Below, piece by piece: positions 21,003 through 23,179 of a DNA stretch of 37,851 nucleotides (the first letter of the stretch is position 1; each line of letters opens with the position of its first letter). The stretch covers positions 1 through 37,851 of the IMG/VR virus record IMGVR_UViG_3300044825_000470; one strand, 5' to 3'. A model generated the notes under the pieces. The model did no database searches. It had not been told where the DNA came from and saw only the letters and a list, made by a program, of their open reading frames with translations. The position numbers and the translations under genes are program-made. The stretch comes from a virus.

Positions 21003-22226
21003 ATGACTTCATCAAACGACTTCGTTCCCGATGTCGAAGTACCCGACGACGAGACAGTGATGGTTCTCTGTTTCGAGACACGGGAACTGATACCCGAGGA
21101 CATCGCACTCACCGTCAATGTCGATGTGTACGACTTGCGTCGCAGTGAGCGCACTTACATCGACGAGACACGGCAGAATGTGTACGGTCGCATCACGCTG
21201 TACTTCCACGAGGATGAGTCGGGCGTGTGCGATTGGTGTTCCGATGTGTTCCCGGCATCGTGGCTCGACTCACTCAACGATTGGGAGAGCGACACCATCT
21301 GTCGTTCATGTATCAACGAGGACGCTCGCACCTGCGGTTCGTGCGGTACTCGTCTTCACTACGAGGACATGAACTACTCCGACCGATACGATGAGTACTA
21401 CTGTAACGACATGGACTGCTATCGTGGTCACACTCGCACTCATCTCATTCAGTCGTACCATCACACGGTGAACAACCTCACATTCCGTTCGTGGTCTGTG
21501 AACGGTGTCGTTCGTCATCGCGTACATCGCAACCACCCGTACATCGGACTCGAAGTGGAGACCAACATCAGAGACGAAGACCGTCTCAACGATGCGGCCG
21601 AGTTCTTCCTCGAAGGTATCGAAGACGAGTACCTCGTGCTCAAAGAGGACGGCAGTATCAACGGCTTCGAAATCGTGACGCACCCTGCGGACTATCGTGT
21701 CCACTTGGAGATGTTCCCGTTCGAGAAGTTGCGTCGCCTGTCCGAGTTCGGCATGAACGCATGGACCAACCGTGACACTGGCATTCATGTTCACATCAGC
21801 AAGAACTCGTTCTCTGCTGGCTCGCACCTGTACAAGTTCATGACTTTCCATGACCGTAATCAGGAGGCCATCAGGCGGTTCGCTGGTCGCTCATCAACCT
21901 ATGCCAAGTTCGGCAAGATGCCCGGCGATAACCGCATCGCTATGGCCAAGGGGCAGATGACCAACTACGACCGCTATGTGGCAGTGAACATTCAGCCATC
22001 GGCCACCGTAGAGTTGCGTTACTTCCGCTCAAGCCTGCGTCCTGCCACCGTCAAGGGCATCATTCAGTACAGCCATGCGCTGTGGCAGTACACGAAGGAC
22101 ATCACCGCCAACGATGCCGTGTCTAAGCGAGCACTTGATTGGACTGAGTTCACCGCATGGTCGGAGTCGCAGTCAGACAAGTACCCCGACCTCGTCCCTC
22201 TCATGCGTACGCGTGGCGTCGCCTGA
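21003..22226 (+). CDS. COOH-NH2 amidoligase with N-terminal zinc ribbons
   Basis: The protein has 407 residues. ATG at 21003 has AAAGG six bases or so upstream. Four Cys pairs at residues 76/79, 100/103, 111/114 and 134/139 (CDWC, CRSC, CGSC, CNDMDC) suggest two interleaved zinc sites. The C-terminal 225 residues match the amidoligase_2 family of glutamine-synthetase-fold ligases: IGLEVET (181-187), EDGS (215-218) with FEIVT (222-226), HVH (262-264) and VELRYFR (336-342). These Glu, Asp, His and Arg residues would hold Mg2+ and ATP and form an amide bond between a carboxylate and an amine. The next gene is a glutamine amidotransferase that could supply ammonia. The substrate is unknown: peptide, cell-wall peptide or modified base are possible. 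Confidence 0.82.
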   Translation: MTSSNDFVPDVEVPDDETVMVLCFETRELIPEDIALTVNVDVYDLRRSERTYIDETRQNVYGRITLYFHEDESGVCDWCSDVFPASWLDSLNDWESDTICRSCINEDARTCGSCGTRLHYEDMNYSDRYDEYYCNDMDCYRGHTRTHLIQSYHHTVNNLTFRSWSVNGVVRHRVHRNHPYIGLEVETNIRDEDRLNDAAEFFLEGIEDEYLVLKEDGSINGFEIVTHPADYRVHLEMFPFEKLRRLSEFGMNAWTNRDTGIHVHISKNSFSAGSHLYKFMTFHDRNQEAIRRFAGRSSTYAKFGKMPGDNRIAMAKGQMTNYDRYVAVNIQPSATVELRYFRSSLRPATVKGIIQYSHALWQYTKDITANDAVSKRALDWTEFTAWSESQSDKYPDLVPLMRTRGVA

Positions 22227-22241
22227 TAGGTTCCTATCAAC
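22222..22241. promoter_or_regulatory. TGATAG palindrome, copy 4
   Basis: TGATAGG (22224-22230), TT, CCTATCA (22233-22239) is a perfect inverted repeat and equals copy 3 at its core (GATAGGTTCCTATC). Its TGA is the stop codon of the amidoligase. After it, CTATCAACTCAT repeats the sequence that follows copy 1. Confidence 0.7.
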
Positions 22242-22273
22242 TCATAACATCAACAATCTGAAAGGAAACAATT

Positions 22274-23179
22274 ATGTGTCTACTCATCTACGCTCGCCCC
22301 GGTTCGACGCCGAGCAAGAAGCATCTGCGTACAGCAGGGGCCAACAATCCTGACGGCTTCGGCTTTGCCCTCGCCGTTGGTAACAAGGTCATTCATCACC
22401 GTTCGATGGACCTCGAAGATACCATCGGTCTGTTCCATGACCTCCGTGCCGAGTATCCCAAAGCACACGCCATGTTCCATCTGCGTATCACTACGCATGG
22501 CAAGACGAGCATCGACAACTGTCACCCGTTTGTCGTCGACGAGGGCATTGTCCTCGGCCACAACGGCATGCTCCCCATTGAGGAGAAGGACGGCAAGTCG
22601 GACACTCGTCAGTTCGCAGAGGAATGGTTGCCTGAACTCGGTGTTGCCGATGTGCTTGACAACAAGGAGAACTTCGCCGAACTGGAGAAGTTTGCGACTG
22701 GTTCCAAGTTGGTTGTCCTATCGACCAGCAAGCAACTAGCCAAGCCTGTGTACATCGTCAACGAAACCGCCGGTCACTGGGACCACGGCGTGTGGTATTC
22801 CAACAACTCATACAAGTACGAGTGGTATGCGCAGTCGTACCGCTACTATTCCACGCCATCGACAAGCAAGGGTGTCACGCCGAGCGATGACTTCCTTGAC
22901 GACGATGACTTCGCATACTCGAATGTGTGGGTCGATGACGATGGCATGGTGTACGAGTGGAACGAACGGCGTGGCTGGGTTCAGACTGGCAACGATTACC
23001 GTGACTTCGACCGCTACTTCTACTGCCCCACCTGCGATGCCAACCTCGGCTCTGATAGCGAGCGTGTCGCCGAGATGGGTCACTGCTATGATTGCGGTTG
23101 CTGTATCTTCTGCGAGAAGGACTACGGCTCGTGCTACTGCTCTGGATACAAGCCTGCTCGCAAGGCTTTGAGTAAGTGA
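22274..23179 (+). CDS. class II glutamine amidotransferase with C-terminal Cys cluster
   Basis: The protein has 301 residues. ATG at 22274 follows AAAGGAAACAATT. Cys2 directly after Met is the N-terminal nucleophile of this Ntn-hydrolase family. NPDGFG (25-30), HLRITTHG (69-76), NCHPF (82-86), GHNGML (95-100) and SDTRQF (109-114) match its substrate pocket and glutamine-binding residues. It would cleave glutamine and release ammonia. Residues 251-289 add nine Cys (251, 254, 271, 274, 276, 277, 280, 287, 289), a likely double zinc site not usual in this family. Its neighbour is the amidoligase, so the two may form a two-protein amide-forming complex. An acidic linker (DDFLDDDDFAYSNVWVDDD) joins the parts. 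Confidence 0.87.
   Translation: MCLLIYARPGSTPSKKHLRTAGANNPDGFGFALAVGNKVIHHRSMDLEDTIGLFHDLRAEYPKAHAMFHLRITTHGKTSIDNCHPFVVDEGIVLGHNGMLPIEEKDGKSDTRQFAEEWLPELGVADVLDNKENFAELEKFATGSKLVVLSTSKQLAKPVYIVNETAGHWDHGVWYSNNSYKYEWYAQSYRYYSTPSTSKGVTPSDDFLDDDDFAYSNVWVDDDGMVYEWNERRGWVQTGNDYRDFDRYFYCPTCDANLGSDSERVAEMGHCYDCGCCIFCEKDYGSCYCSGYKPARKALSK

Follow-up and report, generated by a model that had tools for sequence, protein, structure and literature searches.

The window analysed here is the whole of a 37,851-nucleotide stretch of viral DNA (IMG/VR record IMGVR_UViG_3300044825_000470). In its early region, two open reading frames lie next to each other on the plus strand, with 47 bases between them. The first (21003..22226, +) encodes a protein of 407 amino acids, assigned as an amidoligase (AL) from its GS/GCS2 fold, PHROG profiles and an AlphaFold2 (AF2) model. 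The second (22274..23179, +) encodes a class II glutamine amidotransferase (GAT) of 301 amino acids with Cys2 as the nucleophile, assigned from PHROG 25883 and from the profile and fold of GlmS. Each frame is preceded by its own Shine-Dalgarno-like GAAAGG (20991..20996 and 22260..22265, both +). A sequence-only reading had placed adjacent amidoligase and amidotransferase genes in this early region, and the frames were indeed found there on a common strand; the motif positions it gave for both proteins were correct on residue check, as were its counts of eight Cys in the N-terminus of AL and nine in the C-terminus of GAT. In the nearest phage, L002, each protein has a counterpart that is 70–73% (about 70%) identical. 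Compared with L002, dN/dS is about 0.28 for AL and 0.22 for GAT (pS about 0.53, pN 0.18–0.21), and both genes are under purifying selection.

A perfect 14-base palindrome, GATAGGTTCCTATC, precedes both genes, at 20937..20950 (66 nt ahead of the AL start) and at 22225..22238 (49 nt ahead of the GAT start), and imperfect copies are found upstream at 19475–19488 and 20021–20034. Against 0.62 matches expected, four were found, a number that was reached in one of 100 shuffles. L002 carries four perfect copies, two of which occupy the equivalent spots ahead of AL and GAT. The palindrome stands 60–63 nt before AL in L002 and L011, and 44–53 nt before GAT in L002 and, in an imperfect form, in L095. 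It is probably an operator common to the first early genes.

The match of AL to the Pfam family Amidoligase_2 (PF12224; E = 6e-4) scores 20.3 bits, below the gathering cut-off of 22. Its relatives L022 and L173 pass this score, so that the shortfall concerns the cut-off as applied to this one protein; the claim made here is that AL belongs to the superfamily (Amidoligase_2/GS-GCS2). GAT likewise matches GATase_4 (E = 1e-3) under the curated cut-off. Because both Pfam scores fall short, the assignment of the two proteins rests on fold and family profiles. AL matches PHROG 22302 (E = 2e-27), which is functionally unnamed, and PHROG 2443, ‘amidoligase enzyme’ (6e-7). The AF2 models of both proteins were built on family alignments that held the window and IMG/VR sequences only. 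For AL, the model has a pLDDT of 88, and its leading fold matches in the PDB are YbdK (8e-5), GMAS (1e-4), GS (2e-4) and Dop (1e-3), with PafA also present. Each of these leading matches of the predicted fold is either an ATP-dependent carboxylate-amine ligase or a Pup enzyme, and they belong to one superfamily. The TM-scores are low (about 0.3 for AL and 0.4 for GAT), so that for both proteins the fold is judged by how well the hit lists agree, together with the motifs.

The catalytic core of AL (residues 180–342; 21540..22028, +), delimited in a 60-row alignment, contains G182-x-E184-x-E186, K214-x-DGS(216–218) followed by G221/E223, G260-x-H262-x-H264, R296 and E337-x-R339. On a predicted GS-like fold, this is the full GS-GCS2 superfamily set of ExE, GxE, HxH, R and ExR. 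Fourteen positions are invariant among the 60 members: G182, E184, E186, D216, E223, P228, G260, H262, H264, R296, N329, T335, E337 and R339.

For GAT, the profile match to PHROG 25883 (E = 6e-31) is to a functionally unnamed family, and the best named match is GlmS (1e-9). The glutaminase domain of GlmS is also the first fold match (1e-7, probability 1.0), followed by PurF and EgtC (2.5e-4). The model has a pLDDT of 83 overall and of about 97 over the Ntn glutaminase domain (residues 1–180; 22274..22813, +). This domain has the marks of class II enzymes, namely the N-terminal Cys nucleophile, HxRxxTHG, HPF, HNG and SDT. The motif residues are C2, R71, T74-H75, H84, H96-N97-G98 and D110; C2, R71, T74/H75, H84, N97/G98 and D110 correspond, by motif, to the glutamine-binding set of GlmS. 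M1, C2, G30, H69, R71, T74, H75, G76, H84–F86, H96–G98, D110, W174, S176 and N177 are invariant across relatives. A loss of catalytic residues in relatives, which had been named as a finding that would speak against an active pair, was not seen in the 57–60 diverse members on which the conservation alignments of AL and GAT are based. As the catalytic residues are invariant in relatives, neither protein is a degenerate enzyme.

Both partners carry a Cys domain in addition. In AL, it spans residues 76–139 (21228..21419, +), with Cys at positions 76, 79, 100, 103, 111, 114, 134 and 139 and an isolated C23 besides; this putative zinc domain has weak profile similarity to LIM and zinc-ribbon domains. 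C111, C114, C134 and C139, which lie just ahead of the catalytic core, are 93–100% conserved in 57 ALs. Beyond this Cys4 site, ALs differ greatly in how many CxxC pairs they have: none (L051 and L072 among the GAT-paired sequences), or two and up to eighteen. The C-terminal domain of GAT (residues 251–289; 23024..23140, +) has nine Cys, eight of which are invariant among 12 near relatives, in the pattern C-x2-C-x16-C-x2-C-x2-C-x2-C-x6-C-x-C. The motif is present in 51 of the 89 GATs scored. On the AL tree, sequences whose GAT has the motif fall in one branch of 54 rows that includes the window (SH-aLRT 97), and two changes are needed to explain its distribution. The two clusters are real, conserved domains, and a well-supported branch in which both partners have them, each a putative zinc domain, can be recognized. 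The two had previously been described as added zinc sites. The clusters themselves stand; ‘added’ is loose, as the Cys domains are standing features of the branch, and zinc is suggested by the spacing of the Cys residues.

Conservation of the AL Cys4 site and of the eight GAT Cys is consistent with the proposal that these domains serve in docking. A more specific role in holding the complex together is hinted at by two AL-only phages that were inspected, one of C. difficile and one of Microcoleus, in which AL is without the N-terminal Cys domain as well. It is only a hint because there are few independent events: the joint loss amounts to two cases, and it is countered by L051 and L072, where GAT is present although no CxxC pair precedes the AL core. 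In phiEco32 and LUZ24, AL is without a Cys domain, yet Cys clusters are found at the C-terminus of GAT. In the faecal contig L089, an AL with Cys domains is partnered by a class II GATase of divergent sequence.

A search for the pair in other phages had been proposed, and two scans of IMG/VR were made, each keeping the 80 matches nearest the window. With GAT as the only query, AL adjoins GAT in 79 of the 80 loci; the one without it is a fragment of 752 bases. With AL as the only query, GAT adjoins AL in 79 of 80, and the remaining contig ends eight bases past AL. These figures describe the subfamily of the window, since the loci kept are the nearest ones and the two sets share loci. AL is upstream of GAT in nearly all of them. 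The pair is common in environmental phages, the AL-only scan having matched at least 599 stretches. Outside the subfamily, a lone AL is found in one C. difficile phage and one Microcoleus phage, and a lone GAT in Bifidobacterium phages. Within the subfamily, the coupling of the two genes is nearly absolute. Such adjacency in both directions supports the earlier suggestion that amidoligase and class II GATase are a working unit.

The branch of the window appears to be mainly actinobacterial, because half of its loci have a WhiB-type gene (27 of 54; that of L015 was confirmed by Pfam at 4e-13), Marvinvirus mycobacteriophages are placed inside it (L004), and chromosomal copies occur in Nocardia and Actinocatenispora. 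WhiB is a family of actinobacteria and their phages. No WhiB gene was detected in the window, so that its actinobacterial host is suggested by its kin. Among 84,980 genomes of bacteria and archaea that were scanned, the AL-GAT pair was found in 19 Nocardia loci (L173–L191) and in two Actinocatenispora species (L192–L193). The ALs of these genera form one clade (97) within the branch of the window (98). Most of the Nocardia loci have two or three pairs in tandem, with DprA-, ParB- and DUF4192-type genes close by, and the surroundings in both genera look like an integrative or plasmid-like element. A JAB isopeptidase beside a Nocardia pair was set aside, as it was seen at one locus only. The pair is also present on large plasmids of Mycobacterium intracellulare and Mycobacteroides abscessus (L196 and L197), where it is annotated as amidoligase and ‘glucosamine 6-phosphate synthetase’. 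The PADLOC-DB defence models matched neither the pair of the window nor that of Nocardia.

It is on balance likely that AL and GAT form a two-subunit, glutamine-dependent amide synthetase, an estimate that covers the chemistry and the complex and not the substrate. GAT, as a class II Ntn glutaminase using Cys2, would hydrolyse glutamine to glutamate and ammonia. AL, with its GS/GCS2 fold, would use ATP and a divalent metal to convert a carboxylate of the substrate to an acyl phosphate, which the ammonia would attack to give a primary carboxamide. The net reaction would be R-COOH + Gln + ATP → R-CONH2 + Glu + ADP + Pi. We infer that the proteins associate, that ammonia passes between them and that the reaction runs in this direction. 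The Cys domains, presumably with zinc, may hold the subunits together, hold the target, or both, by analogy with the insertion in MurT that helps to bind GatD.

There are two counterpoints to an amide synthetase: class II Ntn enzymes of the fold of GAT can remove gamma-glutamyl groups instead, and ALs with such a fold are able to use amines in place of ammonia. In the ergothioneine pathway, a GCS2-type ligase (EgtA) works with a class II Ntn amidohydrolase (EgtC), which removes glutamate. The pair might by the same logic serve in gamma-glutamyl protection and removal, where AL would couple an amine of a metabolite or peptide to glutamate or another amino acid, and GAT would later cleave the glutamyl group. 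Both folds fit this scheme, with EgtC among the fold matches of GAT and GMAS and YbdK among those of AL, and gamma-glutamyl cyclotransferase genes are close neighbours in L062 and in a small number of further loci. However, GAT of the window is closer to the glutaminase domains of GlmS and PurF in sequence (1e-9) and fold (1e-7) than to EgtC. A cyclotransferase-type profile was matched at only two of 96 non-redundant AL loci and unconvincingly in the window (best E = 0.6), and no further pathway gene accompanies the pair in the branch of the window. To our knowledge, neither EgtA nor EgtC has Cys domains of the type found in AL and GAT. Protection and removal of a glutamyl group is therefore considered rather unlikely.

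A parallel to the proposed amide synthetase is MurT/GatD, which also combines an ATP-dependent ligase bearing a zinc-ribbon-like insertion with a separate glutaminase (PMC6085368, PMC6113224). The Cys-rich insertion of MurT is part of the interface with GatD, and a Cys mutant associates less with GatD (PMC6085368); in the S. aureus MurT/GatD structure, it is a Cys4 zinc ribbon whose role was left unclear (PMC6113224). However, MurT/GatD consists of a Mur ligase and GatD (Cys94/His189), as opposed to a GS-like ligase and a class II Ntn glutaminase (Cys2). The folds are unrelated, and the comparison is one of analogy, not homology.

The sequence-only reading had regarded the pair as the best candidate for an undescribed system. 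This did not hold, because a prediction of the pair dates from 2009, and its presence in Marvin and OM43 phages had been noticed. It is annotated in Marvinvirus mycobacteriophages and in OM43 phages and discussed in PMC10580990, where the earlier notice is attributed to Iyer et al. 2009 and to the Marvin paper of 2012 (Mageeney 2012). The Marvinvirus mycobacteriophages and the OM43 phages MEP401 and MEP402 carry both genes side by side and in the order seen here; the homology covers 54–73% of AL and 60–67% of GAT at an identity of 27–37%. In MEP402, unlike in the window, GAT has no Cys domain at its C-terminus and AL has a single Cys4 site. What appears to be new, as far as was found, is the measured coupling, the Cys-domain branch with its spread among actinobacteria, the copies in tandem in Nocardia and those on plasmids, and the palindrome.

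The pair is also related to the phiEco32-type gene set, for which the name ‘peptidoglycan modification cassette’ is used in passages on these phages (Iyer 2009; Hardies 2013; PMC5498523). The AL/GAT family can be tied to the phiEco32/LUZ24 cassette because its relatives add an ATP-grasp, PF14395 or GGACT/cyclotransferase gene. A RimK-like ATP-grasp gene is present in 15 of 96 non-redundant loci; in the phage loci L022 (5745–12428) and L036 (3049–9890), a PF14395 ligase stands in line with a pair of amidoligases and a pair of class II GATases, which makes an expanded cassette; and in L062, GGACT joins the pair. The window could accordingly hold a reduced form, in which the pair and host enzymes that replace the ATP-grasp and cyclotransferase build unusual wall peptide linkages and block superinfection. 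For phiEco32, a modification of the cell wall that goes with superinfection exclusion had been put forward (Iyer et al. 2009 and Hardies et al. 2013, as related in passages of PMC10580990 and PMC5498523); PMC11318856 words the wall modification as fact, and its source is the same computational paper. The resemblance extends to the Amidoligase_2 protein, the class II GATase, the early or replication region and the Cys clusters at the C-terminus of GAT, and phiEco32 and LUZ24 have AL, GAT, ATP-grasp, PF14395 and cyclotransferase together. However, a six-frame HMM search of the window gave no convincing match for ATP-grasp, PF14395 or gamma-glutamyl cyclotransferase, and ATP-grasp was detected nowhere in the 54-row branch. 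The similarity is remote (HMM E 1e-6 to 1e-9), the ALs of phiEco32 and LUZ24 do not have the N-terminal Cys domain, and the literature found shows no experiment on wall modification for any member. A reduced cassette of this kind seems improbable. The anticorrelation between ATP-grasp and the GAT Cys domain looked striking; it was not taken as independent evidence because the motif, needing two changes, is essentially one event on the tree. In the window itself, the minus strand at 31183–37821 encodes a 2212-residue protein with nearly no recognisable domain that reaches almost to the window end; an ATP-grasp match in it (E = 0.002 in an unfiltered search) was rejected, as it was unconfirmed by Pfam or PHROGs.

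If AL and GAT are an amide synthetase, the leading guess for their target, held tentatively, is a carboxylate of an envelope peptide in an actinobacterial host, for example, D-Glu or diaminopimelate of a peptidoglycan precursor. It is favoured because of the published guesses and the parallel with MurT/GatD. A lysozyme/transglycosylase-like protein of the early region with a possible lipoprotein signal (24308–24865; SLT_3 1.7e-5) has a similar counterpart about 3 kb downstream in 23 of 54 branch loci; this supports a wall theme weakly, because the gene may encode a phage lysin. A host or phage protein is a second and slightly less likely guess, favoured because the Cys domains vary and the fold resembles those of Dop and PafA. 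There is a considerable chance, greater than that given to either guess, that the target is something else. In a broader and speculative formulation, the pair would be a mobile-element-borne, zinc-finger-guided system for glutamine-dependent amidation of a host macromolecule, either a protein or an envelope polymer, in which the N-terminal Cys domains, variable in number, are target readers and the users are actinophages, Nocardia and mycobacterial elements.

It is very unlikely that the two proteins are auxiliary enzymes of nitrogen metabolism that shift nitrogen from one amino acid to another in support of phage replication, as proposed for a phage of Planctomycetes whose genes include an amidoligase, a GATase, a glutathione-synthase-like gene and a cyclotransferase (PMC10945688). 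Multiple variable Cys domains in AL and another in GAT would be unexpected in small-molecule enzymes, and glutamine synthetase is already present in the hosts. A modified base, also suggested earlier as the substrate, found no specific support here. The one neighbour that might point to DNA modification is a DUF1599 domain at a distance of 6 kb, and Pfam and PHROG scans of selected ORFs showed no other base-modification candidate. The ORF concerned (29319–30146) fuses a sigma-70 region 4 domain with DUF1599 (nucleotide modification associated; E = 4e-4).

AL and GAT are thereby narrowed to a two-protein unit with clear predictions, and Nocardia genomes and cultured mycobacteriophages hold relatives that permit a direct test. 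If the target is the wall, this would be phage peptidoglycan amidation by a new enzyme pair; if it is a protein, a new protein modification. Elsewhere in the window, the ORF at 27742–28644, beside a DnaB-like helicase, is primase-like and matches the archaeo-eukaryotic primase domain of the TOTE conflict system (AEP-TOTE, 6.5e-16).
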